Source of the DNA: Terrimonas ferruginea DSM 30193
Lineage (GTDB): Bacteria; Bacteroidota; Bacteroidia; Chitinophagales; Chitinophagaceae
Direction of reading: 5' to 3'
Assembly (NCBI RefSeq): GCF_000425585.1
Contig: NZ_KE384400.1
Location: 153,395-217,394 of the forward strand
DNA: 64,000 bases
Made by a program: the position numbers and the translations under genes
Notes under the pieces: generated by a model
What the model was told of the DNA's origin: nothing
What the model saw: only the letters and a program-made list of their open reading frames with translations
The model's database searches: none
In this document: piece by piece, positions 7,658 to 27,856 of the stretch
Layout: the number at the start of each line of letters is the position of its first letter
Numbering within the stretch: the first letter of the stretch is position 1

Positions 7658-9940
7658 TCACTTTTGAGGCGCGGACATGGAATAAGGCGCAGCAGCCTGC
7701 GATGTGCCGCGCTTAAGATCGGGTTGTGCCTGCATAATAAAATCAAGACGCATTCCTTTCATCAATGCGGCATGACTCAGCCAATTATTTGTATGTAACC
7801 GGCCGTTGGCTTTCAGCGACTGCACATATAAATTATTTTCATTGACAGCAGGTGCATTGATCTCAACCTGCTTTCCATTTTCCAGTTGCAAACGGATTTT
7901 CTTAAATAACGGCGCACCGATCACATATTGATCCGTACCGGGACATACCGGATAAAATCCCATGGCGGAAAACACATACCAGGACGAAGTCTGTCCGTTG
8001 TCTTCATCACCGCAATAACCATCCGGTTGCGGGAGGTATAATTTATTCATTACCTCTCTTACCCAATACTGTGTTTTCCAGGGTTCTCCGGCGTAATTGT
8101 AGAGATAGATCATGTGCTGGATGGGTTGATTGCCGTGCGCATATTGTCCCATGTTCATCACCTGCATCTCGCGTATTTCGTGAATCACTTTTTTATAATA
8201 GCTCTCATCAAATACAGGAGGCATTTTGAACACGGAATCCAGCATTTGTATAAATGATTTTCTGCCGCCCATCAGGTCAATCAGGCCCTGTATATCGTGA
8301 AATACACTCCATGTGTAATGCCAGCTATTCCCTTCTGTAAATGCATCACCCCATTTAAACGGATTGAAAGGAGTTTGAAAATTCCCGTCCTTGTTTTTAC
8401 CACGCATTAGTTTGGTGGAGGGATCGTAGAGATGACGGTAGTTCTGGCTTCTTTTGGCAAACAGGTCTATTTCTGCCTGCGGGCGTTTCAATACTTTTGC
8501 CAATTGCCAGATGGTGAAATCGTCGTATGCATATTCCAAGGTACGCGCCGCATTTTCATTGATATTGACATCATAGGGAACGTAACCGAGTTCATTGTAA
8601 AATGAAACGCCTTTGCGTCCCACCGCTGTCAGCGGCCCTTCATTATTTGTGCTTTTGAGGATGCCTTCATAGAGTGTCTGAATATCATAGCCGCGTAAAC
8701 CTTTGAGATAGGCATCCGCCACAACGGAAGCTGAATTATTACCGATCATGCTGTTGCGGTAACCGGGACTGCTCCATTCCGGCAGCCACCCTCCTTCTTT
8801 GTAAGCATTTACCAATCCTTCCTGCATCTCCGCATTAACCGACGGATAAAGCAAATTCAGCAATGGATAAAGTGAGCGGAACGTATCCCAAAAACCCGTG
8901 CCCGCATAGAGATAACCGGGAAGTGTTTTTCCATTGTAAGGACTGTAATGCACGGGCTTGCCGGACGCATCCAGTTCATAATGTTTTTGGGGAAATAACA
9001 CACTGCGGTAAAGGCAGGAGTAGAATGTGCGCAGTTGATCCACGGAGCCACCTTCTACATCCACTTTCCCCAACACTTCATTCCATCTTGCTTTGGCCGT
9101 TGTTTTTATCTCGTCAAAGCTTTTGCTGCCGATCTCGCGCTGCAGATTGAGTGCCGCCTGCTCCGGGCTGATGAAGGAAGAAGACACACGCGCCTGCAAC
9201 TGCTGACCGCGCATGGTTTTGAAACTGATAACGGCTCCCGTATGTTTGGCCTGCTTTTCTCCCGCACCCGGTACCAGCTTACCATCCTGGTAGATCCAGG
9301 AGGCGGAGAAAGGTTGATCAAGCTGAATAACGAAATAGTTTTTAAAATCATCGGGTACGCCACCGCGGTTGCGGGTGGTATAACCTTCGATCCGGCGTTG
9401 TTCCGGTAAAATCCGGATGAATGATCCTTTATCCAGCGCATCGATCACCAGGAAAGCACTATCCGTTTGCTGATAGGTAAAACGGAAAAATGCTGCGCGC
9501 TCGGTTGGCGTTATCTCCGTTACCACATCATGATCGGCGAGATATACCTTGTAGTAATAAGGTCGGGATTCTTCTGCTTTGTGCGAGAACCAGCTTGCAC
9601 GATCGGTTTCTTTAAAAACCAACTTACCCGTAGCCGGCATCAGGGCAAACTGGCCGTAATCGTTGATCCAGGGTGAAGGCTGGTGCGTTTGTTTGAAACC
9701 AACGATCCTGCTCGAATCATAGGTATAAGCCCAACCATTACCCATTGGTCCGGTCTGCGGTGTCCAGAAGTTCATGCCCCATGGCAGGGCTATCGCCGGA
9801 TAGGTATTGCCATTGGAGAACTCATGTTTCGATGCTGTTCCCATTAAGGGATTAACATGATCTACTACATTTTTCGTGCGGCTCACCTGCGCATTTAAGA
9901 GGGAGGGCAGCAGGCAAAACAGAAACAGGGTTTTCTTCAT
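7658..9940 (-). CDS. GH92 family alpha-mannosidase (GH92-1)
   Basis: 760 aa with a Sec signal peptide (MKKTLFLFCLLPSLLNAQ). GH92 enzymes are calcium-dependent exo-alpha-mannosidases. Family blocks are HVNPLMGT near residue 30, NTYPAIALPWGMNFW, GTGFWDTFRSLYPLL, the HGNQPIQHMIYLYNYAGEPW loop, and the acidic GDEDNGQ motif near residue 645 that provides catalytic carboxylates. It ends without a lipobox, so it is probably periplasmic. It lies 5 bp after FAD oxidoreductase 1 and 42 bp before the ROK kinase. Linkage specificity cannot be read from the sequence. Confidence 0.93.
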   Translation of the reverse strand: MKKTLFLFCLLPSLLNAQVSRTKNVVDHVNPLMGTASKHEFSNGNTYPAIALPWGMNFWTPQTGPMGNGWAYTYDSSRIVGFKQTHQPSPWINDYGQFALMPATGKLVFKETDRASWFSHKAEESRPYYYKVYLADHDVVTEITPTERAAFFRFTYQQTDSAFLVIDALDKGSFIRILPEQRRIEGYTTRNRGGVPDDFKNYFVIQLDQPFSASWIYQDGKLVPGAGEKQAKHTGAVISFKTMRGQQLQARVSSSFISPEQAALNLQREIGSKSFDEIKTTAKARWNEVLGKVDVEGGSVDQLRTFYSCLYRSVLFPQKHYELDASGKPVHYSPYNGKTLPGYLYAGTGFWDTFRSLYPLLNLLYPSVNAEMQEGLVNAYKEGGWLPEWSSPGYRNSMIGNNSASVVADAYLKGLRGYDIQTLYEGILKSTNNEGPLTAVGRKGVSFYNELGYVPYDVNINENAARTLEYAYDDFTIWQLAKVLKRPQAEIDLFAKRSQNYRHLYDPSTKLMRGKNKDGNFQTPFNPFKWGDAFTEGNSWHYTWSVFHDIQGLIDLMGGRKSFIQMLDSVFKMPPVFDESYYKKVIHEIREMQVMNMGQYAHGNQPIQHMIYLYNYAGEPWKTQYWVREVMNKLYLPQPDGYCGDEDNGQTSSWYVFSAMGFYPVCPGTDQYVIGAPLFKKIRLQLENGKQVEINAPAVNENNLYVQSLKANGRLHTNNWLSHAALMKGMRLDFIMQAQPDLKRGTSQAAAPYSMSAPQK

Positions 9941-9945
9941 CTTTA

Positions 9946-11952
9946 TTATTTTTTTACCGGCACCAGCAGAACTGCATCCGCCACAATGGTGCCATTGGCA
10001 TTTTTATTTGTCACCGTAACGGTGGCTTTATCTCCGGCCGGCAATTGCCAGGTTCCCAGTGATACCCACTCACCATTGGTTTGTCCGTTTACGATCACAT
10101 CGGCCAGGCGGATCGTGATTTCTTTTTTATTTTTTCCATCAAATATTTCCCAGTTGGTGACCGCAGAAGCTTTGGATATTTTGGGTAAGACGTAAGTGTA
10201 TATTGTGTACTCTCCTGCCTTCGCGACAGCAGGTGTAAAGGTAACAGACCTTGGCTGATCCTGCACCGATGCGTACAAGGCATCCGGACCATAAGTGCCT
10301 CCCTTTTTTACCGACCAGCGTCCGTTTACTTTTATGCGCGACGAATCTGTATTATCGACCAGTATCTCCGGTTGTGTGCCATTGGATAAAGGATCCGTTC
10401 TTAATTGTTGTTGCAATTGTGCTACGTCCACCGATTGTACATCCGTTTTTTTATTGATGGCCTGAACGGCAGCCAGCGCAGCCGATTGCCCCAGCACCAT
10501 GAACACAGGTTCCATGCGGATCGATCCGTAACTGATATGACTGGCAGAGAGACAGACCGGCACCAGCAGGTTGGTACACTGCGTACGTTTGGGCACCAGC
10601 GATCGGTAGGAGATCGGGTAAGGAGACAAACCGCCTTCTTCCACGTCACCTTCGTTTTTCACCATCCCGTTTATTACGAGCCGCTGTGTGTTGTGAGAAT
10701 CCATACCGTAAGCGGCCATTCCGATCCCATCATTCACCACCACTTTTGATTGGCAGTTGGCCTGTGTCATCACATACTCACCAATCATGCGCCGTGCTTC
10801 GCGCACATACATCTGCGGACTCCAGTGACCGTTGTCGGTGTATTCATCTTTGGGATAGCCCCAGTCAAGCATGAAATGGCGGATGGGCGCGGGTATTCTC
10901 GGATCATGCCCGATAAAATACAGCAGCCCTTTGTTATACAATTCATGCTCTTTTTGAATGCGTGCACGCGTAGCATAATCACCATCCGGATAAGCCCAGT
11001 TCATACCGATCATATCGGTAGAAAAGCCGCCACCGTTGTTGATATCCGTCTTGTGATTGGGCATCAGGTCGAACTTGAGTATTTCGCGGATATCGTCCTG
11101 CACGGTAAGACGGGCGATATAGCGCGGTAAAATTTCATACCGGCTGGAATCATAACCCGGCGGTTTGGTAATAGGAATGCGGTTAGCGGGATCGTTGGTG
11201 AGGCAAATACGAAAATTATACGCCTGTACATGATTGTCGCCACTGCCGATCGGTGCCAGCACCGTGTCGCTGATACCCCACAACAATCCGCTTGAAGGGT
11301 CACCGGGAATTTTATACGGATCCACACCGTCAGGGATCTGGTTGCCGCGCTGCGGTGTTTTCGAGGGCTGCACTTGCACACCGTTGAAAGATTCATTATA
11401 AATGCTGCCGGCCTCGCGGCCCACGATATACGAAACGCCTGCCCTCGCCATCAGATCACCTTCATAACTGCAATCGATGAACACGCGGGCACTAATTGTT
11501 TTATTGGTAACAGGAGATACCGTTACATTCTCCAGAATGATCGATCTTATCTGTGTTCCTTCTTTACTGGCGGATACAATACGATGCTGATACAACACTT
11601 CCACATTCGCTTCGCGGATATATTGGTGGAATGTTTTCTCCGCAACAGATGGTTCAAATATCCATGATTCGAACTGTCCGTAATGTTTTCCCAACCGCCG
11701 GTAAAAGTCAATTCCCAGTCCCGTTACAGCATATTTGTTACCAATATCGGTATAACCCAACCCGCCGGAGGAAAGGCCACCGAGCCGATTACCGGGTTCT
11801 ATCAGCAGCACCGTCTTGCCCTGTTTCTTCGCGGTGTACGCCGCTATCACACCGGCTGAGGTACCGCCGTAAATACAGATATCATATACTTTCTGGGCCG
11901 TTGCATTGAATACAACAACCAGCAGGCAAATCAAAAAAATGCTTCTTTTCAT
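9946..11952 (-). CDS. Exported FAD-dependent oxidoreductase 1 with C-terminal beta domain
   Basis: 668 aa with a Sec signal (MKRSIFLICLLVVVFNATAQ). The FAD_oxidored (PF12831-type) core has the dinucleotide motif YGGTSAGVIAAYTA then a GKTVLLIEP strand, [28 protein letters not shown] and the late ASHISYGSIRMEP segment. Residues about 535-668 form an added beta domain (VDNTDSS..V.GRW..KGGTYG..AL) resembling golvesin-C/xanthan-lyase-type domains. The electron acceptor and substrate are unknown. It is one of three related enzymes in this PUL, 9 bp after the MFS gene and 5 bp before GH92-1. I infer oxidation of a sugar or glycoside outside the cytoplasm. Confidence 0.85.
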   Translation of the reverse strand: MKRSIFLICLLVVVFNATAQKVYDICIYGGTSAGVIAAYTAKKQGKTVLLIEPGNRLGGLSSGGLGYTDIGNKYAVTGLGIDFYRRLGKHYGQFESWIFEPSVAEKTFHQYIREANVEVLYQHRIVSASKEGTQIRSIILENVTVSPVTNKTISARVFIDCSYEGDLMARAGVSYIVGREAGSIYNESFNGVQVQPSKTPQRGNQIPDGVDPYKIPGDPSSGLLWGISDTVLAPIGSGDNHVQAYNFRICLTNDPANRIPITKPPGYDSSRYEILPRYIARLTVQDDIREILKFDLMPNHKTDINNGGGFSTDMIGMNWAYPDGDYATRARIQKEHELYNKGLLYFIGHDPRIPAPIRHFMLDWGYPKDEYTDNGHWSPQMYVREARRMIGEYVMTQANCQSKVVVNDGIGMAAYGMDSHNTQRLVINGMVKNEGDVEEGGLSPYPISYRSLVPKRTQCTNLLVPVCLSASHISYGSIRMEPVFMVLGQSAALAAVQAINKKTDVQSVDVAQLQQQLRTDPLSNGTQPEILVDNTDSSRIKVNGRWSVKKGGTYGPDALYASVQDQPRSVTFTPAVAKAGEYTIYTYVLPKISKASAVTNWEIFDGKNKKEITIRLADVIVNGQTNGEWVSLGTWQLPAGDKATVTVTNKNANGTIVADAVLLVPVKK

Positions 11953-11961
11953 GTGATGCTT

Positions 11962-13185
11962 TTATTCTGTATAATTCAGGTCGCGGGTAAAGGTTTCTTC
12001 CATTTTCCACAGAGCCGACAGAGCCAGTAATATGGCAACGCCTCCGATCAATCCGGCGGAACCCAGCCGCCCGAAATGTTGTGCGCCCAACAGGAACAAC
12101 GGTGTGAATACATTGACGCTGCCACGGACGAAATTGGGAACAGTGGTAGCAACCGTTGCACGAAGATTGGTACCGAACTGCTCCGCCGCGATGGTCACGA
12201 ACAAGGCCCAATAACCAATGGCGTATCCCAGCAGGAGACAAAGGCCATAAAAAACAGTTGTGCTCGGCGAGCGTTGGCATAAATAAATAGCCATGGCCGC
12301 AGAAGTGAGCAACACAAAGATCAATACTGTTTTCCGGCGGCTCTTTAAGTACTGGCTTAACAATCCGCTGCTCATGTCACCGAGCGAAAGACCGATATAA
12401 GCAAACATGACAGCTTTGCCTGCATCCACAGGTGTAGTAAGCCCGATAGCCTGTGCAAACTCGGGCGAAAAAGTAATGAGAATGCCGATCACAAACCAGA
12501 TAGGTAAACCGATCAGGATGCAGCGCAGGTATTTCATAAATCTCTTCCGTGAAGTAAACAACGAAAAGAAGTTGCCACGCTGTGTCGACCGCTCTTTTAC
12601 TTCCTTGAAAATTCCGGATTCAAACACATTGAATCGCAAGATCAGCAGCAGCAATCCCAGGCCGCCGCCGATGAAATAAGCAATGCGCCAATCGTACATA
12701 TCTGCTACGAAATAGGCCAGTACCGCACCCAGTACACCCACAGACGCCACAATGGTGGTACCATACCCGCGGATATTTTTCGGAAGTATTTCCGCAACCA
12801 GTGTGATGCCTGCACCCAATTCACCTGCGAGGCCGATACCCGCAATAAACCGGAGCAGCGCATATTGATTGATCGTGGTAACAAAACCATTGGCGATGTT
12901 TGCGAGGGAATACAATAAGATAGAACCGAACAAAACAGAAAGCCTTCCTTTTTTATCACCCAGCACGCCCCAGAACACGCCACCAATCAGCATGCCCAGC
13001 ATTTGCATATTGATCAGGAACACACCCTGGTCCAGCAACTGATCTTCTGCAACATTCAATGACCGCAGGCTGGGGATACGGACAATACTGAACAAGAGCA
13101 GATCATAAATATCCACGAAGTAACCGAGGGCTGCCACGATAACAGGAACGGACAATAACTGACGGAGTGTTGATTTTTTTTCCAT
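11962..13185 (-). CDS. MFS transporter
   Basis: 407 aa with about 12 hydrophobic segments and the loop 2-3 motif GDKKGR of the major facilitator superfamily. Charged residues in the first helix (YFVDIYDLLLF) and ELGAG in helix 5 recall metabolite:H+ symporters of the sialate/aromatic-acid type. It probably imports the product of the exported PUL enzymes across the inner membrane. It lies 17 bp after the SGNH gene and 9 bp before FAD oxidoreductase 1. The sugar carried is not predictable from sequence. Confidence 0.9.
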   Translation of the reverse strand: MEKKSTLRQLLSVPVIVAALGYFVDIYDLLLFSIVRIPSLRSLNVAEDQLLDQGVFLINMQMLGMLIGGVFWGVLGDKKGRLSVLFGSILLYSLANIANGFVTTINQYALLRFIAGIGLAGELGAGITLVAEILPKNIRGYGTTIVASVGVLGAVLAYFVADMYDWRIAYFIGGGLGLLLLILRFNVFESGIFKEVKERSTQRGNFFSLFTSRKRFMKYLRCILIGLPIWFVIGILITFSPEFAQAIGLTTPVDAGKAVMFAYIGLSLGDMSSGLLSQYLKSRRKTVLIFVLLTSAAMAIYLCQRSPSTTVFYGLCLLLGYAIGYWALFVTIAAEQFGTNLRATVATTVPNFVRGSVNVFTPLFLLGAQHFGRLGSAGLIGGVAILLALSALWKMEETFTRDLNYTE

Positions 13186-13202: not shown

Positions 13203-13940
13203 TTAGCTGAGTAGTTTTTGAAGATAAGCGGGATAACTTTCCTTGTCTGTACTGCCGTCACCCTTGGTGATGCTGTCGCCCAGGCAAACAATTTTACCGG
13301 CATTCAGGTTTTGACAAATAAGGTATTGACTAACGGCCAGTGCCAGGAACCGGTAACCGTTGCGCGTAGGATGCACGCCGTCGGGCTTCTGGCTATTGGC
13401 TTCGTTGCGCAACAGGCTGTCTTCTTCGGTTCCGATTTTGCCGACTTTTTCAAAAGGCATTCCGATATCAAAGAAATAAGCTTTGCGTGCCGCTGCCACC
13501 GAGCGGATCGTATCATTGACAGCTTTTCTTCTGCCCGACGGTCCTTCGGGTTGAAAGAACTCCGCCGGATGTCGGCTCAGCAAATAGGGCTCATAAAAAG
13601 GAAGAATCGTCATCAGCAGCAGTTTGCTGCCGGCACCCTGGATCTGTTCTGCCAGTTTCTCCAGGTTTGTTTTGTACTGCGGCAGGGGCACATGCTTGCC
13701 ATTGTTCATGTCGTTGGTGCCGACCATCAGAATGGTGAGTGCGGGCTTGTGTGCAAGGCAATCCGTGTCTACCCGCTGCAGCAGATTTTTGGTATTGTTG
13801 CCATTAACGCCGGCGTTGATGATGGTAACGGGTTCGGCAGGCTGCTCATTGGAAAAATGATCGCCGGCTTTTGCCCATCCTGCAGGTGCCAGCGCGGCGG
13901 CCAGCAGGGCCGTTTGTCGGATAAAATTTTTACGATCCAT
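13203..13940 (-). CDS. SGNH/GDSL-type hydrolase with circularly permuted motif order
   Basis: 245 aa with an export signal (MDRKNFIRQTALLAAALAP, likely cut after AKA). SGNH hydrolases are serine esterases with block I (GDS) near the N-terminus. Here the order is block II INAGVNGNNT (residues 41-50), block III GTND (74-77), block V DGVHP (187-191), and only then block I CLGDSITKG (219-227, Ser223), followed by ESYPAYLQKLL and the stop. All catalytic elements are present in one open frame. Strand 1 and helix 1 have thus moved to the C-terminus behind a short NLNAG linker. The role in the PUL is probably deacylation of the glycan. It lies 17 bp from the MFS gene; repeats fill the 150 bp upstream. 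Confidence 0.88.
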   Translation of the reverse strand: MDRKNFIRQTALLAAALAPAGWAKAGDHFSNEQPAEPVTIINAGVNGNNTKNLLQRVDTDCLAHKPALTILMVGTNDMNNGKHVPLPQYKTNLEKLAEQIQGAGSKLLLMTILPFYEPYLLSRHPAEFFQPEGPSGRRKAVNDTIRSVAAARKAYFFDIGMPFEKVGKIGTEEDSLLRNEANSQKPDGVHPTRNGYRFLALAVSQYLICQNLNAGKIVCLGDSITKGDGSTDKESYPAYLQKLLS

Positions 13941-13949
13941 GTTTATAAT

Positions 13950-14098
13950 TCAAAAGGTGAATAGTGAATGGTCAATGGTGAATGGTCAATGGTGAATGGT
14001 GAATCGTCAATCGCCAATAAGGCTATTTTAACTATTACTTATTACTTACTACTTATTACTTACTACCTTACACCTTACGCCTTACACCTCCTACCTTC
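13950..14098. repeat. Heptamer repeat block B
   Basis: Eight GTSAATN units (13957-14012), a core with GCC AATAA GGC, four ACTTAYT units and three ACCTTAC-type units, ending inside the last codons of GH92-2. It separates GH92-2 from the SGNH gene and may mark a transcript break within the PUL. Confidence 0.75.
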
Positions 14099-16460
14099 CC
14101 TCCGTGGACATCGACGGCGGCGCATCCTGCGGACGGGTGCCCCACTTTTTATCGGGCGTGGCGCTCATCTCCAACTCCAGTTTACCCCCTTTAATCAATT
14201 CTTCATGATAAAACCAGGGAGCGCTTAATTTGCGGCCATTCAACCGGGCTGAGCGGATATACCTGTTTTTATCCGAAACATTTTTCGCTTCGATCACGAA
14301 TGTTTTGCCGGGATAATATTTTTCATCAAGGTGGATAGTGATCTTCCTGAATATCGGACTTCCTATTTCGTAGATGGGTTTAGTGGACCCACCACCATCC
14401 ATCTGAAAAAGACCGATCGCGCTCATCACCAGCCAGGCGCCGCCTTGTCCTTCATCCTCATCGCCGGGCCATCCGTGTTGCGGGGTGAGGCCGTAATATT
14501 TGTTGATAATTTCCCGCACCCAATATTGCGTCAACCAGGGTTTACCGGAATAGTTATATAAATAGGCAGATTGCATACCCGGCTGATTACCGTGGTTGAC
14601 GGCGGGCATGGGACTTCCATGCTGACGGAAATTCATCGTGGCTCCGTATTCAAAACCACGTGCCAGCCGCGCATTGAACGAATCACGACCCACCATGGCT
14701 ATCAAGCCGTTCACATCATGCGGCAGGAAGAAGGAATATTGAAAAGCATTTCCTTCTACAAACCCCATCCAGGAATACCGCGGTTTCTCTACGTCGCGCA
14801 TCGCGAGATAAAAATCCAGCCATTTACCATTGATATCTTTTCTCCGGAAATATTTAATCGTGCTATCGAATACGTTTTTGTAGTTATAAGCCCTTTTGAT
14901 AAAATAATTATAGTCTTCCTCCTTGCCCAATGCTTTGGCCATTTGCGCCACATTCCAGTCGTCATACGCGTAATCGATGGTGTTAGATGTTGGTCCTTCG
15001 TCCGGTGAGCCAAATACTTTAAAGCGTGACCAGTTACTGCCATCGGGTACATACCCGAGCTGCTTGTAAAGATCGAGTTGCCGGTTGCCGACGAGTCCTC
15101 CGCAGGGATGTACTTCACCCTGTACATCCTGGTTTTTGCGCATGGCCTCGTATGCTTTCTGCGCATCAAAATCGCGGATGCCTTTCTGGTAAGCACTGTT
15201 GATGAGCGTCATCTCATGATGCCCCACCATGATGTCACAATATTCAAGACCGATCGGTCCGTTGGGCAGCCATCCGCCTTTATCATACATCTCCAGGAAT
15301 GACCGCACCCAATTGGCCGTTACGCGCGGAGTAACCAGCGACCAGAGTTGATTGAGGTTCCACTGGGCACCCCAGAATGCGTCCGAGCCCAGCATGGGAG
15401 ACGAGGGATCATTCAGTTGACGGATTTGTTCGCACATATCTACCCACTTGCCCGAAGCGTCACTGAAAGTGGTACGGGAACAATAAGCACGATAAAAGTT
15501 TGTATAGAATTTTCTCCTTTCGTCTTCTGTTCCGCCCTCCACTTCTATTTTGTTTACGATCTGCGCCCATTCGCTGCGTGCTTTGTTACGCACTGCTTCA
15601 AAGTCCCATCCGAAAGGATCGGATTCTGCCGCCAGGTTTTTGCGCGCTTCCTCCATGCTCACAAACGAAATACCTGTTTTCAATTGTATCTGCTCGCCTT
15701 CGGTAGTATGAAAACCAATGAACGCTCCTACATCACCATGTCCCCAGTTATAATTGTTGATGGTGTCGATGTCCTGGTTCACCCAGGTACCGAAGGAACG
15801 CATGGGTTTGTCGACCCTTGCCACAAAATAGATCGTGTAATCGTTGGACAAACTGGCAAACCAGTTAAATAGTTGTTGTTTGGAAAATCCTTCAATCTCA
15901 TAATCGTTTACCTTCTTAATCGAAGCCCAGTCTACTTCGTAAGGATATTCGGTCGGAATTTTCAGGTCGAATAAAATACGGGAGGTGGAAGAGGCGGGAA
16001 ACGTGTAACGTTGAAAACCGGTGCGGCAGGTGCTCGTGAGTTCCGCTTTTATTCCATAATCTTTCAGCAATACGCTGTAATAGCCGACAGATGCTCTTTC
16101 ATCCGCATGGTCAAATCTTGAACGGTAGCCTGAATCGGGCTGATCGATCTTTCCGGGTTGTACTTTCAGCGGGCCGTTGGTGGGCATGGTCAGCAAACCT
16201 GCCATTGCCCAGCTATGGATATGACTGAAACCGGCAATATTGTTCGTGGCATAATTGTAACCGGCATGTGTGCCATCTTCTTTGTTATCTGGACTCAGCT
16301 TCACCATGCTGAAAGGTGTGGATGGTCCGGGGTATTGCATCCACCGTACCTCGGTAGTGCCGATCATGGGATCGATATAGTCCACCGCTTCACGGGGTTG
16401 TTGTGCATCAGCAGCGAAAGAGGTGATAATAAAAAACAGGCAAATGAAAATCTGGCGCAT
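14091..16460 (-). CDS. GH92 family alpha-mannosidase (GH92-2)
   Basis: 789 aa with a signal peptide ending AADAQ. Blocks typical of GH92 are YIDPMIGT, GFSHIHSWAM, GSDAFWGAQWNLNQLW, NHGNQPGMQSAYLYNYSGKPW and the acidic GDEDEGQGGAW motif near residue 667. It differs strongly from GH92-1: for example PGPSTPFSMVKLSPD replaces the NTYPAIALPWG segment. The two probably act on different linkages. It lies 6 bp after FAD oxidoreductase 2 and is the second gene of the transcription unit that begins at the internal operator. Confidence 0.92.
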   Translation of the reverse strand: MRQIFICLFFIITSFAADAQQPREAVDYIDPMIGTTEVRWMQYPGPSTPFSMVKLSPDNKEDGTHAGYNYATNNIAGFSHIHSWAMAGLLTMPTNGPLKVQPGKIDQPDSGYRSRFDHADERASVGYYSVLLKDYGIKAELTSTCRTGFQRYTFPASSTSRILFDLKIPTEYPYEVDWASIKKVNDYEIEGFSKQQLFNWFASLSNDYTIYFVARVDKPMRSFGTWVNQDIDTINNYNWGHGDVGAFIGFHTTEGEQIQLKTGISFVSMEEARKNLAAESDPFGWDFEAVRNKARSEWAQIVNKIEVEGGTEDERRKFYTNFYRAYCSRTTFSDASGKWVDMCEQIRQLNDPSSPMLGSDAFWGAQWNLNQLWSLVTPRVTANWVRSFLEMYDKGGWLPNGPIGLEYCDIMVGHHEMTLINSAYQKGIRDFDAQKAYEAMRKNQDVQGEVHPCGGLVGNRQLDLYKQLGYVPDGSNWSRFKVFGSPDEGPTSNTIDYAYDDWNVAQMAKALGKEEDYNYFIKRAYNYKNVFDSTIKYFRRKDINGKWLDFYLAMRDVEKPRYSWMGFVEGNAFQYSFFLPHDVNGLIAMVGRDSFNARLARGFEYGATMNFRQHGSPMPAVNHGNQPGMQSAYLYNYSGKPWLTQYWVREIINKYYGLTPQHGWPGDEDEGQGGAWLVMSAIGLFQMDGGGSTKPIYEIGSPIFRKITIHLDEKYYPGKTFVIEAKNVSDKNRYIRSARLNGRKLSAPWFYHEELIKGGKLELEMSATPDKKWGTRPQDAPPSMSTEGR

Positions 16461-16466
16461 CGTTGA

Positions 16467-18356
16467 TTATTTGGATGAACGCGATAATTTTTGTTCGTAG
16501 ATGTATTGCAATACTTCGGCTTTCTTATGTTGACCGGCTTTAAAGCGTTTGTTCAGCAGAAGACCGGATCGTTTGCTCCAATCACTCAGTTCCTTTGAAG
16601 AAACCGCGTCATCCGGTTTGGCTTCCCACGCCGGCAGGTAACCGTTGAGCCCTGCAAATTGAATGGCACGGAACTGTGGATGACTGGTGGTAACGTCGCG
16701 GTAATAGATCAGGATTGATTGTTGATTGATGAGTTCTTCCTGGATCGCTTTTACGGGTAATTGCTGTACAGGTATTTTTTTATCGATTTGTTGCGACGCG
16801 GCAACACCCGCGGCCTGTCCGAGCGCCATCCAGCAAGGCTCCATGCGTAAGGTGGCGAGGCCCAGATGCGTAGCAGATGCCGGCACAGGCGCCAGCAGAT
16901 TTGTGATACCAGGCGGAACGATCACGCCATACGGAACAGTATAGGGTGCGGTGGAATAACTTAAAAAACCATCCAGTGCGGTTCTTCCTTTTTCCCGTTT
17001 ACGATTCGCATGGGAATCGATGCCGTAGTGACTGGCCGTAAGGCTTGTTGCATGAACAGGCGGGCGGCTGGTCTTATCAACCGGTGTGGCGTCCGAGGTA
17101 CGGAAGAGATAAAGTCCTTTCATGCGGCGACCTTCGCGCACATATACCTGCCGCGGAAAATTATTGTTGTCGGTAAACTCGTCGGCCGCCAATCCCCATT
17201 GCAGGCATTCGTTGCGAAACCATTCCGGTAATTCAGAATCTGTTTGTCCGAAATACAATAATCCCAGTGTATAATTTTTCAGGCGTTCGGCAAAGCGGTC
17301 GCGCCATTCCCAGGAAGAAGTGGCCCAGGGCCAGTTTTCTTCGGGAAGATCGGTGGACACAAATGCACGGTGCTGATTATTGGCATCTGTTTTTCCGTTT
17401 GGTACGATCACTTTGTTTACCAGGCGTTGCATGCCCTGCGGCCTAAACTTTCCCTCCGGCGGTAATCCCTGGGAGCTGCGCCAACGGTTTGAATCACGTT
17501 GTTCGGTAGACATCTTTGCCCACTCCACACCGGCATGTTCACCGGTACGCACATCGCTGATGATTGAAACATATTCATCACGATTGTAGACGGCAGGTTT
17601 GGGAATAGCAATGCGTTTTGCGGGATCGTTGGTCAGGCACAACCGGTAATTGTAAGCCTGGATGGCGTTGTCGGCAAGATTGGTAGAGCCCGGCTCCTGC
17701 CCTTCGGCTCCCCACAATTTATATACCTGTCCGGCATAAGGTTCGTTGTACTCCGCTATTCCTTCGCGTCCTGTGGCGAAAGGAACGCCTGCTGCTGCGA
17801 TAAGGTCGCCTTCATAGGTAGCGTCGATAAATACCTTACCATGATAAGTTTCGCGTTTATTAGTGGTGCGATTAAAGATATGAATGCTGCGGATGGTTTG
17901 TTTCTCCATCACCAGGTTGGCGGGATCGGCATCGAACTGCCGGCTGGTGAGTACGGTTACCGTTTTGGCTTCGGCGAGCATATCGAGCAGTATTTTTTCA
18001 CCGACAGATGGTTCGAAATGATAACCATTGGTACAGTCTTTTACCTGCTGTGAATTGGCGCCGTAGGTACGGACATAATGGTTTTTGATGCGTGTGATGA
18101 ACTCAAGAAATAATCCACCGGTTGCGCCACGTGTGATCAGATCTGTAGCGCCGAGGCCGTTCGCCACCAAACCACCAGGGTGGGAAGTGCGCTCGAGTAC
18201 CAAAGCTGTTTTGCCGAGCCGTGATGCAGCAATGGCGGCCATGATGCCGGAAGGTGTGCCACTTACTACAATCAGGTCGTATTGTTGTGGCGTGTTCTGC
18301 GCATGCATGGATAATGCGGATGCGAGGAGTGCAAAAAGCAAAATATATTTTCTCAT
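16467..18356 (-). CDS. Exported FAD-dependent oxidoreductase 2
   Basis: 629 aa with a Sec signal (MRKYILLFALLASALSMHAQ). FAD_oxidored core: VSGTPSGIMAAIAAS, GGLVANGLGATD, FIDATYEGDLIAAAGVPFATGREG, YVREGRRMKGLY and ATHLGLATLRMEP. The C-terminal 80 residues (YYRDVTTSHPQFRAIQ..G..) resemble one SLH-like repeat, a weak call. It is the first gene of the downstream PUL unit. A LacI-type operator covers the bases directly before its ATG, and there is no visible Shine-Dalgarno there. Its role is inferred to be oxidation of an exported sugar substrate. Confidence 0.85.
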   Translation of the reverse strand: MRKYILLFALLASALSMHAQNTPQQYDLIVVSGTPSGIMAAIAASRLGKTALVLERTSHPGGLVANGLGATDLITRGATGGLFLEFITRIKNHYVRTYGANSQQVKDCTNGYHFEPSVGEKILLDMLAEAKTVTVLTSRQFDADPANLVMEKQTIRSIHIFNRTTNKRETYHGKVFIDATYEGDLIAAAGVPFATGREGIAEYNEPYAGQVYKLWGAEGQEPGSTNLADNAIQAYNYRLCLTNDPAKRIAIPKPAVYNRDEYVSIISDVRTGEHAGVEWAKMSTEQRDSNRWRSSQGLPPEGKFRPQGMQRLVNKVIVPNGKTDANNQHRAFVSTDLPEENWPWATSSWEWRDRFAERLKNYTLGLLYFGQTDSELPEWFRNECLQWGLAADEFTDNNNFPRQVYVREGRRMKGLYLFRTSDATPVDKTSRPPVHATSLTASHYGIDSHANRKREKGRTALDGFLSYSTAPYTVPYGVIVPPGITNLLAPVPASATHLGLATLRMEPCWMALGQAAGVAASQQIDKKIPVQQLPVKAIQEELINQQSILIYYRDVTTSHPQFRAIQFAGLNGYLPAWEAKPDDAVSSKELSDWSKRSGLLLNKRFKAGQHKKAEVLQYIYEQKLSRSSK

Positions 18357-22768: not shown

Positions 22769-24469
22769 TTAATAATTCGGGTTCTGTTTGAATTCAGCTT
22801 TGTTGGTGGAAAGATCCAGTTCCGACTGCGGGATCGGGAACAGGTAATGTTTACTGGCATTGAAACTGGTACTCGTGTTAACGATTGTGGTAAAAGAAGC
22901 CGACCGTGTCAGTTCGAGGAAATACTCAAATTTTCCTGTACGCGCCAGGTCATACCAGCGTTGGAATTCGAAACAAAGTTCACGTGCCCTTTCCATTAAA
23001 ATTTCATTGATGTTGATATCCGAAGCCACATAGTTTTTAAAGGTCGGCGTGGCTGATTCGGGAATAGGATTGCCGCCGGCATCCAGTCCACGGGCGCGCT
23101 GACGCACACGGTTGATGGCATCGAGACCTTCCTGCGAAATGGTACCGTTCTTCTTATAGTCGGCTTCGGCAAACATGAGCAGTACATCGGCAAACCGCAG
23201 TACGATCACGTTGTTCGGTGCATTGGAATACAGGTAAGGAGAAGTTTCCCTCCAGGAATTACCCCAACGGTATTTCGTCACGCCGCAACGTCCGAGCACG
23301 GTCTGGTTGTAACTGTCGGGTGAAAAAGTGGTACCCCAGATAAAAGTGAGCGTGGAAGGAACATTGTTCACCACGTTAACCAGCGAATCGCTGAGATTCC
23401 ATACCCGGCGTTTGTCATAATCAACCGAGCGGACCGTAGGTTTATAATATTTGTAAAACTTGGGGACGTATACCAGGTTGCACTGACCGATCAGCGAATT
23501 GGTATAATAGGCAGGATTACCGTTGATACTGCCGCTGGCGATCATGCCATACTCTTTTGTCCATTGCGTACCATAAGGTACTACTGTGCTGAACTGCAGC
23601 TCGAAGATCGATTCCGCGTTGACGTTCTTGTTCTCGATCTTGAACACATCGCCATATACAGGCAGCAGGGCAGCTCCGCTGTTATCTTTCACATCTTTCA
23701 AAGTCGTCCAGGCCAGTGAATACAATTCATTGGTGGTTTGGGTTATGCCCGCATAGCCCGGAACTTTTGCCGCTTCTTTCGAAGAAGCCATGGTAAGGTA
23801 TACTTTTCCCAACAGGGATTGGGCGGCCCAATGATTGGCATGTCCGTTGTTTGTTTTCTGTCTTGTAAGCACACCGGTTTCGGTTGTGTATTGCAGGTCG
23901 GCCACAATAAAATCATATACCTCCGCTATCGGCCGGCGCGGCAAGCCATAATCAAATGCACCGGTGATCGGTTCATCGATAATGGGTAATTCGCCGAAGG
24001 CCTGCACCAGGCGGAAATAAACATAGGCGCGCAGGAAACGGGCCTCACCGATGATCGTCTTGCGGTCTGCATCGCTGATGCTGGTCACTTTGTTCGCCGC
24101 GGCAATGATGGCGTTGGCGCGTGCGGCTATTTGAAAATGGCGGGTCCAGTACTCATAGATAGCGCCCTCACTGGGCGTAAACGTGTGACGGTCGAAATTG
24201 TATCGAACGCCGCTCGTGCCTTTGAACATCCCCTCATCGGTTCCAAGTTCGGTCATGAAAAGAGGTGTATTGGTATAAACGCCAAACAGATCTTTTACTG
24301 ATGAATACATACCGACTACACCGGCATCAAGCGTGGTTTTATTCACGAAGAAATTATCGGCCGTATACTGTGTTTCCGGTTTTTCTTCCAGGAATTTGCT
24401 ACAGGAAACCGTACCCATCAGCAACATACCTAATGCGGGAAGAAGCGGATATTTTTTAAAATGTTTCAT
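22769..24469 (-). CDS. SusD-like outer-membrane glycan-binding lipoprotein
   Basis: 566 aa from the ATG at 24469; an ATG two codons earlier is equally possible. The lipobox is TVSC (Cys23), followed by SKFLEEKPET. It has the SusD pattern of TPR-like helices: FLRAYVYFRLVQAFGELPI, NHWAAQSLLGKVYLT, and the C-terminal RVRQRARGLD..ELCFEFQRWYDLARTG and LFPIPQSELD. SusD proteins cap the SusC channel and bind the oligosaccharide at the cell surface. It lies 16 bp after the susC-like gene. Confidence 0.95.
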   Translation of the reverse strand: MKHFKKYPLLPALGMLLMGTVSCSKFLEEKPETQYTADNFFVNKTTLDAGVVGMYSSVKDLFGVYTNTPLFMTELGTDEGMFKGTSGVRYNFDRHTFTPSEGAIYEYWTRHFQIAARANAIIAAANKVTSISDADRKTIIGEARFLRAYVYFRLVQAFGELPIIDEPITGAFDYGLPRRPIAEVYDFIVADLQYTTETGVLTRQKTNNGHANHWAAQSLLGKVYLTMASSKEAAKVPGYAGITQTTNELYSLAWTTLKDVKDNSGAALLPVYGDVFKIENKNVNAESIFELQFSTVVPYGTQWTKEYGMIASGSINGNPAYYTNSLIGQCNLVYVPKFYKYYKPTVRSVDYDKRRVWNLSDSLVNVVNNVPSTLTFIWGTTFSPDSYNQTVLGRCGVTKYRWGNSWRETSPYLYSNAPNNVIVLRFADVLLMFAEADYKKNGTISQEGLDAINRVRQRARGLDAGGNPIPESATPTFKNYVASDININEILMERARELCFEFQRWYDLARTGKFEYFLELTRSASFTTIVNTSTSFNASKHYLFPIPQSELDLSTNKAEFKQNPNY

Positions 24470-24491
24470 ATGCATCCGGTTTTTAGCAATG

Positions 24492-27400
24492 TTAGAATTG
24501 AAGTTTAAGTCCCACTGAATACACTTTGGAGCGCGGATAGGACGAGAAGTCGAGCGAAGGCATCAGGTCTCCAAAGCCTCCCTGGCGTGTGTTCACTTCG
24601 GGATCGTAGCCGGAGTAATTGGTTGCGATCAGCAGGTTCTTACCACTTACGAATAAGCCGAGTGAAGTGGCGCCGATGCGTTTCAGCGGCTTGCCGGTGA
24701 TCGTATAGGAAAGTGTAACATCGGCCAGCCGGATATACGAAGCGTCTTCGATCCAGTCGGACAGCATCAGCAGTTCGCCGGGGCCGCCGGGCATGCGGTA
24801 TTTATTGTTGGGATTACCTGCTTCTACCTGCGCGCCGGTAGTCATGTCGTACAGCGGTGGTCTCCATGAATCAGCCAGCACGGCGCTCATGTTGGTAGGG
24901 TTACGTCCCTGCTCTAATGTTACGCGGTTGGCATTGTATACTTTATTGCCATAGCTGTATTGAATCACCATGTTCAGGTTAAAACCCATGTACCCTATAC
25001 TATTGGTAAAACCACCGGTGAACAAGGGTTGTCCCAAACCAAGTATCACACGGTCGTCGGCATTGATGATGCCATCGCCATTCTGATCGATGAAGCGGCG
25101 CGTACCCGGACGCACATCTGCCACAGGCTGGCCGTTGATAGAAGTAAGTCCTGATGACATGATCTCTTCACGTGTCTGGTAAATACCATCGGTTTTGTAA
25201 CCATACCATTGTCCGATGGGCTGACCATTGCGGATGATGGCGGATGTACCCACACCGGATACCACACCCGGATCGATGCCGAGTTCTGCGCCAATCTCTA
25301 TGGCTTTGGAACGGTTGACACCAATATTCGCATCCACCGACCAGTTGAAGAATTTTTTACGGAGAATAATAGCCCCGATATTCATTTCCACACCGCTGTT
25401 CTGAATAGAACCAAGATTGGTCCAGGTAGAACGGAATCCTGTATAACCGGGTGTTACTTTTTGAATCAACAGATCTTTTGTGCGTTTGAGATAACCTTCA
25501 ATGGTAATGCTGATCTTGTCTTCAAACAAACCGAGGTCGAGACCGAGGTTGGTTTGGGTGGTAGTTTCCCATTTGAGGGAAAGGTTCTCCGGTCTTTCCA
25601 CCACCACACCGTAATTCGGCGTATTGCCATTCATGGGTGAAAAATAAGTACCGATGGTTGACAAGGTCAGGTAAGAAGGAATGGCGGTATTGCCGCTCTG
25701 ACCGATGGTAGCGCGAAGCTTCAGGTTTGAAACTGTTTTTGAACTGCGGAGAAAATTCTCATCCGATATACGCCAGGCAAATGCTCCCGAAGGGAAGTAT
25801 CCCCATTTGTTGGTGCGGCTGAAACGCGAAGAGCCATCGGCGCGGAAGGTAACAGTAAACAAATACCGTCCTTTGTAACTGTATTCACCACGGGCAAGGA
25901 AAGAGGCCATCGACCATTTGGTGATGTTGTACGTAGGAATGATGGGAACGGTACCGTTCTGCAAACCGTATACGCCTAAAACCTCTACATCATAGTTTTG
26001 GTTCTCGGCAGTTATCTGGTTGACTTTGCTTGTTTCAAAAATGGCACCGGCAGTACCGTTGAACTGATGATCTCTTCCGATGCGGCCCCTGTAGTAAAGC
26101 AGGTTTTCATTCATAAAGCGGTTGCTGGTGGCGCGTGACAGCACCGCGCGGCCATTGAAGCGTGAACCTGCTGAAGTGAACTTCGGATAATAAGCATCGT
26201 TGTTGGTACCGATGGTAGTATAGTTACCGCTGACGCGGAAAGTGAAATTGTTGGTGATATTCCAGTCGATGGCGATACGCGTGATCCAGTCGCTGGTCTG
26301 GCGGGTATTGGTCACGTGTTTCGCCAATGTGTAAGGGTTGTTGCTGATGTAGCCGTCCACGTCTTCATTATCTTCCACGTCCGTTTGCGTAAGCGGATTG
26401 ACGGGAGGTTTGGCAAGCATGCTTGCTACAACGGCATTGGAAGAAATACCGCCGTTGAATGAACCGGCAATATAACCGTCAGTGACGGTACGGCTTGCCG
26501 CAATATTGCTGGTAAGCGTAACTACTTTCGAAAGTTTTTGCTGCAGGTTGAAACGTCCGTTGTAACGTTTATAATTACTGAAGATCACCAATCCTCCCTG
26601 ATCGAGATAACCGCCCAGGAAAGAGAACTTGGTATCTTTTGAGCCACCTGTTACACCCACGCGGTATTCCTGTACCATGCTGTTCTGGAACATGGCGCCC
26701 TGCCAGTCGGTGTTCACAGAATCGGGGCTGTTGTATTTATCCCAATCATGGTAAGTAGCATCGAGCGCCACGCCCCAGAAACCGCCGGGTGTGCCAAAAG
26801 GTGTATCGCGGAAATAAGTCAATCCGCCCTGGGTAGTTGCAGGAATATCCGGATTGGCAGTACTGGGCGGAGAATAAACGTAGGAAGAAGCGAGGTAGCG
26901 CGCGCGGGCATACTGACTTGAATTCATCAGGTCATACATCTTACCGGGACGCTGGAAGGCAACGTTGGTGTAAAGGTCGACACGTGTTTTACCGGCCTTT
27001 CCCATTTTTGTGGTAACAAGGATTACACCGTTTGCTCCGCGTGCTCCATACATAGCGGTACCCGAAGCGTCTTTAAGAATTTCTACGGATTCGATGTCAC
27101 CCGGGCTGAGGGTATTGATATCGTCCTGCAGTACGCCGTCCACTACAAAAAGCGGGGCGCTGCTGGCACTGATGGAACTCGCACCGCGAATGCGGATCGT
27201 GTTTTCAGAACCCGGTGTACCATCGTTCTGAATGATCTGTACACCGGCCGCTTTGCCTTTCATGGCATCTGCCAGGGAAAACAACGTACGGTCCGTTAAG
27301 GCGTCTTTGGAAATGGATGAAACCGAAGCGGTGAGGTCTTTTCTTTTGGTAGAATTGTAACCGATGATCACTACATCATCAAGATCGCCGGGTTTGACGG

Positions 27401-27707
27401 TCATGGTTACATCTATCACGCGGCGTGTGCGCACACGTTCTATCACGGTTTCCATTCCCACATAGGTAAAAACAAGTGAAGAAGTGTCGGAGGTTACCGG
27501 TATGCTATAGCTGCCGGAAACGGAGGTAAGCGTGCGGTTATTAGTGGCATAACGCTCTCTGACGGTAGCGCCCTGCACCGGCGTGCCGTTTGATTCGCGG
27601 ACGACACCGGTAACAATGATGGACTGCGCTTCGGCTGCTCCTTCGATGGCGAGGCTGGTGGCTGCTGCCAGCAGGAGGCGAAATACAAAAGCAGTTCTTT
27701 TTTTCAT
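24492..27707 (-). CDS. SusC-like TonB-dependent receptor
   Basis: 1071 aa from the ATG at 27707; an ATG at 27716 is also in frame. After the signal peptide there is a carboxypeptidase-regulatory-like domain (about 28-112), then a plug domain with IRIRGASSISASSAPLFVVDG and VEILKDASGTAMYGARGANGVILVTTK, and a beta-barrel ending in an aromatic-type C-terminus (VYSVGLKLQF). It should import the oligosaccharide across the outer membrane with TonB energy, capped by the SusD-like lipoprotein. It is the first gene of the PUL, preceded by an operator and a -7 box. Confidence 0.96.
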   Translation of the reverse strand: MKKRTAFVFRLLLAAATSLAIEGAAEAQSIIVTGVVRESNGTPVQGATVRERYATNNRTLTSVSGSYSIPVTSDTSSLVFTYVGMETVIERVRTRRVIDVTMTVKPGDLDDVVIIGYNSTKRKDLTASVSSISKDALTDRTLFSLADAMKGKAAGVQIIQNDGTPGSENTIRIRGASSISASSAPLFVVDGVLQDDINTLSPGDIESVEILKDASGTAMYGARGANGVILVTTKMGKAGKTRVDLYTNVAFQRPGKMYDLMNSSQYARARYLASSYVYSPPSTANPDIPATTQGGLTYFRDTPFGTPGGFWGVALDATYHDWDKYNSPDSVNTDWQGAMFQNSMVQEYRVGVTGGSKDTKFSFLGGYLDQGGLVIFSNYKRYNGRFNLQQKLSKVVTLTSNIAASRTVTDGYIAGSFNGGISSNAVVASMLAKPPVNPLTQTDVEDNEDVDGYISNNPYTLAKHVTNTRQTSDWITRIAIDWNITNNFTFRVSGNYTTIGTNNDAYYPKFTSAGSRFNGRAVLSRATSNRFMNENLLYYRGRIGRDHQFNGTAGAIFETSKVNQITAENQNYDVEVLGVYGLQNGTVPIIPTYNITKWSMASFLARGEYSYKGRYLFTVTFRADGSSRFSRTNKWGYFPSGAFAWRISDENFLRSSKTVSNLKLRATIGQSGNTAIPSYLTLSTIGTYFSPMNGNTPNYGVVVERPENLSLKWETTTQTNLGLDLGLFEDKISITIEGYLKRTKDLLIQKVTPGYTGFRSTWTNLGSIQNSGVEMNIGAIILRKKFFNWSVDANIGVNRSKAIEIGAELGIDPGVVSGVGTSAIIRNGQPIGQWYGYKTDGIYQTREEIMSSGLTSINGQPVADVRPGTRRFIDQNGDGIINADDRVILGLGQPLFTGGFTNSIGYMGFNLNMVIQYSYGNKVYNANRVTLEQGRNPTNMSAVLADSWRPPLYDMTTGAQVEAGNPNNKYRMPGGPGELLMLSDWIEDASYIRLADVTLSYTITGKPLKRIGATSLGLFVSGKNLLIATNYSGYDPEVNTRQGGFGDLMPSLDFSSYPRSKVYSVGLKLQF

Positions 27708-27856
27708 AAATGGCATTTAGAGAATAAGCAGATCGGTTGATGTCGGAGCGGATAAGGTGGAGTAAGTAAACAATCAATCTGCAGGCGGGGAAATGCCAGG
27801 AACAACAGGCAATAATACGTTAGACATGTGACAAGCAGTTTTGAGTAAAAAATACG

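Follow-up and report, generated by a model that had tools for sequence, protein, structure and literature searches.

Sequence and structure-model evidence for a naturally circularly permuted SGNH hydrolase, with its nucleophile block at the C-terminus, in a glycan-utilisation locus of Terrimonas ferruginea

SGNH hydrolases form a large group of esterases, and circular permutation of an enzyme fold is uncommon in nature. In canonical SGNH/GDSL proteins (PF13472; PDB entries 1yzf, 7ddy, 3p94 and 4hf7) the conserved blocks follow each other in the order I, II, III and V, that is S-G-N-H. Natural permutants of this superfamily have been published, namely AlgX, AlgJ, PatB1 and WssI, for which the accessible parts of the papers give the order H-S-G-N (PMC9487903, PMC4148444, PMC5697884, PMC10302187); in those on AlgJ, AlgX and WssI the order of WssI is also given as H-S-G-D (PMC9487903, PMC4148444, PMC10302187). 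The initial annotation of the gene analysed here, which knew of no firm report of a natural permutant, was thus too strong on this point. Since such permutants are already in print, any novelty is confined to the cut site and the family.

The gene lies on the minus strand of a 64,000-nucleotide stretch of the genome of T. ferruginea DSM 30193, which we call the window and whose coordinates are used throughout. Its features are the following:

13203 to 13940, minus strand: open reading frame of the permuted SGNH hydrolase, 245 aa plus stop; matches PF13472 with an E-value of 5.1e-25 in two stretches
13851 to 13940, minus strand: probable export signal, residues 1-30; hydrophobic N-terminus, low model confidence at residues 18-32, an RR motif opening many homologs
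13791 to 13820, minus strand: block II, INAGVNGNNT, residues 41-50, with the oxyanion residue Gly44 (44 of 44 permuted rows)
13710 to 13721, minus strand: block III, GTND, residues 74-77, with the oxyanion residue Asn76 (44 of 44 permuted rows)
13569 to 13574, minus strand: Arg123-His124, a motif typical of the permuted family; Arg123 in 42 of 44 permuted rows, the other two having gaps
13371 to 13382, minus strand: block V, DGVH, residues 187-190, with Asp187 and His190 (both in 44 of 44 permuted rows)
13206 to 13325, minus strand: residues 206-245, which correspond to the N-terminal part of the canonical fold and are displaced here (linker, strand b1, block I and helix a1); rotation scan peak at 210-213, modelled strand 216-221 and helix 236-244
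13260 to 13286, minus strand: block I, CLGDSITKG, residues 219-227, with Ser223; Ser223, Cys219 and Gly227 in 44 of 44 permuted rows

The window protein shares blocks I, II, III and V, the catalytic residues and the predicted fold class with the canonical SGNH/GDSL enzymes, but its order is G-N-H-S. AlgX and AlgJ (4KNC, 4O8V) and WssI resemble it in being natural SGNH permutants with a Ser-His-Asp triad. However, as far as the accessible parts of the papers describe them, these proteins are cut between blocks III and V (H-S-G-N), whereas the window protein is cut between blocks I and II. Moreover, they are exopolysaccharide acetyltransferases, whereas the window locus looks degradative, and for AlgJ and AlgX a DxH motif and a Tyr in block III are described (PMC9487903), where the window protein has DGVH and GTND. 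PatB1/DHHW (5V8E) is a natural SGNH permutant as well; the accessible part of its description gives the order H-S-G-N together with the motifs KDS, DxRY and TDHHW, none of which is found by eye in the window protein. The 19 members of the family alignment together match 14 Pfam families at E ≤ 1, and neither an ALGX model, which Pfam presumably holds, nor a DHHW model is among them. The model of the acetylxylan esterase AxeA1 (NF042968, 459 positions), an enzyme that we take to be canonical in block order, is matched weakly, in two stretches and with 30.6 bits against a cut-off of 700, window residues 211-244 aligning to its positions 271-306. A G-N-H-S permutant was not found in the open-access literature on permutation, as far as its text is accessible; a report in a subscription journal or an annotation note may exist.

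The translation of the reading frame contains no internal stop and has the block order II-III-V-I (G-N-H-S), with a single block I at the C-terminal end that is followed by ESYPAYLQKLL (residues 234-244). It agrees with all block positions and with the order proposed in the initial annotation, and the one stop-free frame of 245 aa indeed holds all four blocks. Equally, the statements that no second block I lies upstream and that only repeats are found there withstood inspection: in the region 13941-14093 all three minus-strand frames are broken by stops and lack a GDS block, and the sequence consists largely of tandem repeats of 7, 14 and 21 bases. A relic of a second block I upstream was rejected on the basis of these three frames. 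Repeats of the same unit lengths occupy positions 13956-14097, between the genes for GH92 and for the permuted SGNH protein. The hydrophobic N-terminus and the RR motif of many homologs make a signal peptide plausible; the Pfam model TAT_signal gives a weak match (E-value of 0.17) in one of the 19 family members.

We examined the permutation by re-ordering the chain. The native chain matches Lipase_GDSL_2 (PF13472) in two stretches, with 89.4 bits at a cut-off of 32.9. When residues 206-245 are joined to residues 34-205, the match becomes a single stretch over positions 1-177 of 178, with 101.9 bits, which bears out the proposal that placing the C-terminal segment before block II restores the canonical order. 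When residues 34-245 were rotated through all 212 possible starts and scored against a profile of 22 canonical SGNH rows, starts at residues 210-213 came out best, with 87.6 bits as compared to 71.7 bits for the native chain. In all 44 permuted domains that were scanned, the window's own included, the best start lies at most 25 aa before block I, and the median gain over these domains is 15 bits, the lowest 1.2. The scanned domains had been picked by motif order, with a pattern that failed to pick up one permuted domain, L075. The scan set and the set used for the tree, 44 domains each, have 43 in common (42 by key, plus L084, whose key differs owing to an extra G.ND hit); with L075 in the tree set only and L098 in the scan set only, this amounts to 45 distinct permuted domains. 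The rotation scan rejects a chance occurrence of a GDS motif at the C-terminus.

Searches of PDB sequences were in line with this. Canonical PDB chains are found better by a family profile in canonical order than by the native-order profile: 1yzf is matched with an E-value of 5.9e-21 by the former and 2.3e-15 by the latter, a rough comparison of 6 versus 19 rows. The native family profile matches 48 PDB sequences, and in none of them does the best stretch cover the whole profile; in 47 it ends at or before profile position 209, and in the remaining one, 4rw0, it covers block I alone. No intermediate with block I at both ends was seen, and 43 of the 44 permuted domains have one GDS-type motif per frame. 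The permuted domain of L095/L102 carries GAS instead of the GDS-type motif, and the full frame of L101 has an extra GDS-type hit at 908, far outside its permuted domain.

AlphaFold2 models of the permuted protein, built on 19 rows, have a pLDDT of 82.5 and a pTM of 0.80 for the first model, and of 85.9 and 0.87 for the chain from residue 34. The first model contains strands at residues 39-44, 68-72, 106-111, 155-158, 175-177 (short) and 216-221 as well as helices at 193-209 and 236-244. Its last strand, 216-221, is the displaced first strand of the canonical fold; it is modelled with confidence, and a linker about 6 residues long separates it from helix 193-209. Near block V both models are of modest confidence (59 over residues 181-190 in the first, 73 over 184-193 in the second), and so is the model from residue 34 just after block I (56 over 224-233). 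SGNH hydrolases head the VIA-align matches listed for the permuted model. Residues 29-213 align to residues 33-190 of 1yzf (Z 15.7, 157 aligned residues, rmsd 2.9), which therefore leaves the first 32 residues of 1yzf for the moved segment; the acetyl xylan esterase 7ddy is tied with it (Z 15.5). VIA-align and Foldseek are sequential aligners, which cannot place the moved segment (residues 214-245); in the row for 3mil the aligned range reaches the last residue of the model. Judged on the 1yzf alignment, the predicted structure has the three-layer a/b/a SGNH fold. AlgX, AlgJ and PatB1 are absent among the structure matches listed, which leaves room for a similarity in fold.

Homologues of the same block order, for which the initial annotation had proposed to search, were found, the 45 distinct permuted domains (the window's own included) coming from Bacteroidota and the Planctomycetota group. 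Reference genomes yielded 19 loci, 18 of them close relatives and one, L038, a weak hit; the genera of the close relatives include Pedobacter, Parapedobacter, Pseudoflavitalea, Runella, Larkinella, Xanthocytophaga, Ginsengibacter and Niabella. Within the window's own family 10 of 147 genomes, its own included, have a match at E ≤ 1e-20, and all are permuted. In its phylum at least 6 of 395 genomes match at E ≤ 1e-15, four of them permuted (the window's own included) and two canonical; one of the two canonical matches, L043, has a weak block I. The Pedobacter-centred family search gave matches in at least 20 of 201 genomes, the centre included, with the permuted order in all 15 in which the order was read (G680, G702, G763, G706 and G687 were left out). 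In a further family the only match among 92 genomes was the search centre itself. In the phylum of Bythopirellula, the Planctomycetota, at least 6 of 199 genomes match at E ≤ 1e-20; five have permuted copies, the only permuted copy in one of these being cut by a stop, and the sixth match, G827, is canonical. The phylum, Pedobacter-centred and Planctomycetota counts are lower bounds, as at most 6 or at most 13 candidates were scored in many genomes. Six plasmid records match, none over 80% of the query. Thus, the distribution of the permuted family is broad but patchy.

The permuted and the canonical rows are separated in score, by a smaller gap in the second collection than in the first. In the first batch (E < 1e-30) all 27 distinct sequences, the window's own included, share the permuted order, and in the enlarged first set each of the 29 rows above 100 bits has one GDS, placed after GxND. 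Scored with the native profile, the 29 permuted rows of the first collection reach at least 149 bits and the others at most 85.2; in the second collection the lowest permuted score is 101.9 (L093/L103) and the highest canonical one 85.7 (L096). Row selection skipped five ORFs missed by the motif pattern (L043, L060, one ORF of L074, L038 and L003). All 19 members of the family alignment match PF13472.

The SGNH superfamily blocks I (GDS), II (G), III (GxND) and V (DxxH) and the catalytic residues are all present, and Ser223, Asp187, His190, Asn76 and Gly44 are invariant in the 44 permuted tree rows. Three further residues, picked after the alignment had been seen, are specific to the family: Cys219 is found in 44 of 44 permuted versus 1 of 22 canonical rows, Asn182 in 43 of 44 versus 0 of 22, and the column of Arg123 is a gap in 15 of the 22 canonical rows. 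The moved segment is under purifying selection, with dN/dS of about 0.07-0.21 in four pairs, values that are rough for so short a segment and of which one comes from a pair with saturated dS over the whole gene. For the pair L027/L029, dN and dS are 0.069 and 0.497 over the whole gene and 0.035 and 0.195 over the moved segment. In L098, from the Planctomycetota group, an in-frame stop ends the frame 7759-8391 directly behind the serine of block I, whereas its close sister L099 is intact; L098 is either a decayed copy or a sequencing error.

Natural permutation is well supported, because the rotation scan, the conserved family of the same order, purifying selection on the moved segment and the predicted fold class all point to it, and we are close to certain that ORF 13203-13940 would encode a natural circular permutant of an SGNH hydrolase. 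There is hardly any chance that it is instead an isolated gene that was rearranged or is decaying, or an artefact of the assembly. Nothing in the window gene suggests this, the early stop in the distant relative L098 being the one point on that side, whereas the same order occurs in many homologs from separate named assemblies, dN/dS is low among relatives and the window reading frame is free of stops. The same-order homologs rule out a lone rearrangement or artefact and also contradict the rearranged, inactive single gene that the initial annotation had named as its refutation. Because dozens of related bacterial genes keep the rotated order, this order is probably an old rearrangement that works, rather than a broken gene, and judging from these sequences the window gene is very probably a functional, conserved circular permutant. 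Whether the order arose once is a separate matter. That the collected rows are several independent permutants would fit the 66-row tree (44 permuted, 22 canonical), which needs two order changes and in which the permuted rows fall on one side of a branch in 0% of 200 bootstrap trees, the bootstrap not being settled. In this tree the long-branch canonical rows L064, L068 and L058 were dropped, L104-L106 were added, and L098, whose frame stops after block I, was not used. Against more than one origin, the AU test does not reject a single permuted clade (p 0.094), in the 51-row tree (29 permuted, 22 canonical) a branch with weak support of 67/87 separates the permuted rows from the others, and the cut site is common to all. 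Because of this shared cut site and of Cys219, Asn182 and Arg123, one origin is favoured, not settled, and repeated origin is rather unlikely.

Two canonical loci show tandem arrangements: L063 encodes two canonical SGNH domains fused in tandem in one frame of 451 aa (1249-2601, reverse-complement coordinates), and L067 has two canonical SGNH genes side by side. They show only that tandem duplication, of the kind from which permutants can arise, happens, and not that it made the permuted family.

The permuted domain also occurs in longer frames. It is N-terminal in L101 (frame of 1209 aa), where DUF6259 follows, and in L102 (1351 aa), where CBM_4_9 follows; in L107 (668 aa) it forms the C-terminal part, preceded by a weak Beta_helix match (E-value of 0.0062). 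The first ATG of L074/L017 directly precedes block II and overlaps the upstream gene, which suggests a copy that would lack a signal peptide. Together, these loci hint at a domain with ends of its own, extending from block II through the helix that follows block I.

The window gene is embedded in a glycan-utilisation locus (6731-27716), a setting on which the initial annotation is silent, with the following neighbours:

7658 to 9940, minus strand: second GH92 gene
9946 to 11952, minus strand: FAD oxidoreductase (PF12831) with Golvesin_C
11962 to 13185, minus strand: MFS transporter (PF07690), next gene downstream, starting 17 bases past the stop of the permuted SGNH gene
14091 to 16460, minus strand: GH92 glycosidase (PF07971), next gene upstream, ending at 14091
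16467 to 18356, minus strand: FAD oxidoreductase (PF12831)
22769 to 27716, minus strand: SusD-like gene and TonB-dependent (SusC-like) receptor of the same locus (PF07980, PF07715)

The order of the locus is ROK, GH92, FAD oxidoreductase, MFS, permuted esterase, GH92, FAD oxidoreductase, LacI, GxGYxYP protein, FAD oxidoreductase, SusD and TonB receptor. As in a PUL, a SusC/D locus thus occurs together with glycoside hydrolases (two GH92, SusD, TonB receptor, LacI, ROK), and by its gene content the window locus looks degradative. At E ≤ 0.001 PF12831 is matched 19 times in the window genome, six times with more than 240 bits, and three of these six matches are the FAD oxidoreductases of the glycan locus.

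We then compared the neighbourhoods of other loci, leaving out the short-flank loci L079-L088. The core clade comprises 23 loci (the window, L020-L037 and L069-L072). A PF12831-type FAD oxidoreductase is the direct same-strand neighbour in 20 of them and is one gene away in two, the window and L069; it is absent in L026, a contig of 6.2 kb. The pair of permuted SGNH and PF12831 genes recurs in L020-L037 and L070-L072, and in some loci the gene ends touch or overlap. In six divergent loci of the first set no such neighbour was detected at the thresholds used (L077 has a shorter FAD-type ORF downstream), nor was one found by blastp in 11 later loci, so the FAD neighbour is not essential to the permuted family. 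ORFs similar by blastp to the SusC- or SusD-like ORFs of the window lie in the fetched stretch of 15 of the 22 other core loci. Other neighbours, identified from ten plus six hand-picked proteins, are GH125, GH2, GH88, GH28 and GH97. Some divergent members adjoin genes for enolase-like and DHDPS-like proteins, an SSF transporter and a short-chain dehydrogenase.

Triad closure, catalysis, substrate and export go beyond what the block order, the conservation, the family of homologs, selection, the predicted class of fold and the gene context show, and we infer them as follows. It is quite likely that the protein is an exported, circularly permuted SGNH acylesterase whose triad closes as usual and which deacylates glycans of the surrounding locus; its function as a carbohydrate esterase, considered on its own, is likely. 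The canonical first strand and helix, with block I and Ser223, would have been relocated to the C-terminus, where a short linker (about residues 210-215) would tie what was the C-terminal helix to what was the first strand, and the new termini would lie in the loop from helix a1 to strand b2. With the usual closure of the fold, Ser223, His190 and Asp187 would form the triad, and the NH of Ser223 together with Gly44 and Asn76 the oxyanion hole. The groups removed would most likely be O-acetyl (or other short acyl) groups of glycans imported via the SusC/D-type locus, and their removal could let the GH92 enzymes, and perhaps the FAD oxidoreductases, act on these glycans.

Two other arrangements would leave the block order as it is. 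The C-terminal block I could complete the active site of a partner chain in a segment-swapped dimer, with no intramolecular permuted fold. The sequence decides neither for closure in cis nor in trans, and the linker of about 6 residues could allow either; the monomer models, with pTM values of 0.80 to 0.87 and a confident strand 216-221, nevertheless speak against the dimer. The chain ends of canonical SGNH proteins lie close together, so the short linker suits closure in cis, and we hold the swapped dimer to be improbable. Scarcely less improbable is a role other than that of an esterase, either as an acyltransferase or as an SGNH protein that binds glycans without catalysis. This reading draws on the published permuted SGNH proteins AlgX, AlgJ, PatB1 and WssI, which the accessible parts of the papers describe as O-acetyltransferases (PMC9487903, PMC5697884, PMC10302187). 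However, those proteins are described, again in the accessible text, as having modified blocks (a Tyr for the Asn of block III, DxH, DHHW; PMC9487903), whereas the GxND and DxxH residues Asn76, Asp187 and His190 do not vary over the 44 permuted rows; the degradative look of the window locus also argues against it. The permuted, intramolecularly closed acylesterase is thus the reading that we prefer.

On balance, we lean towards regarding these proteins as an undescribed family of natural SGNH permutants, of an age that lets it span Bacteroidota and Planctomycetota, with a cut site other than that of AlgX, AlgJ and PatB1, capable of serving as a module and, in one clade, coupled to a PF12831 flavoenzyme in what would be a two-step processing of glycans by deacylation plus oxidation; for this coupling the evidence is suggestive only. 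Because the Pfam label is simply GDSL-like, the absence of an N-terminal block I in such proteins can be misread as truncation. A second cut site would mean that the SGNH fold tolerates permutation at two loops, in degradative as well as biosynthetic settings. The permuted family is a natural test of how folding and secretion respond to a nucleophile that has been shifted from the chain's start to its end, and the FAD oxidoreductase gene that recurs next to it points to a pair of glycan-processing enzymes yet to be characterised.
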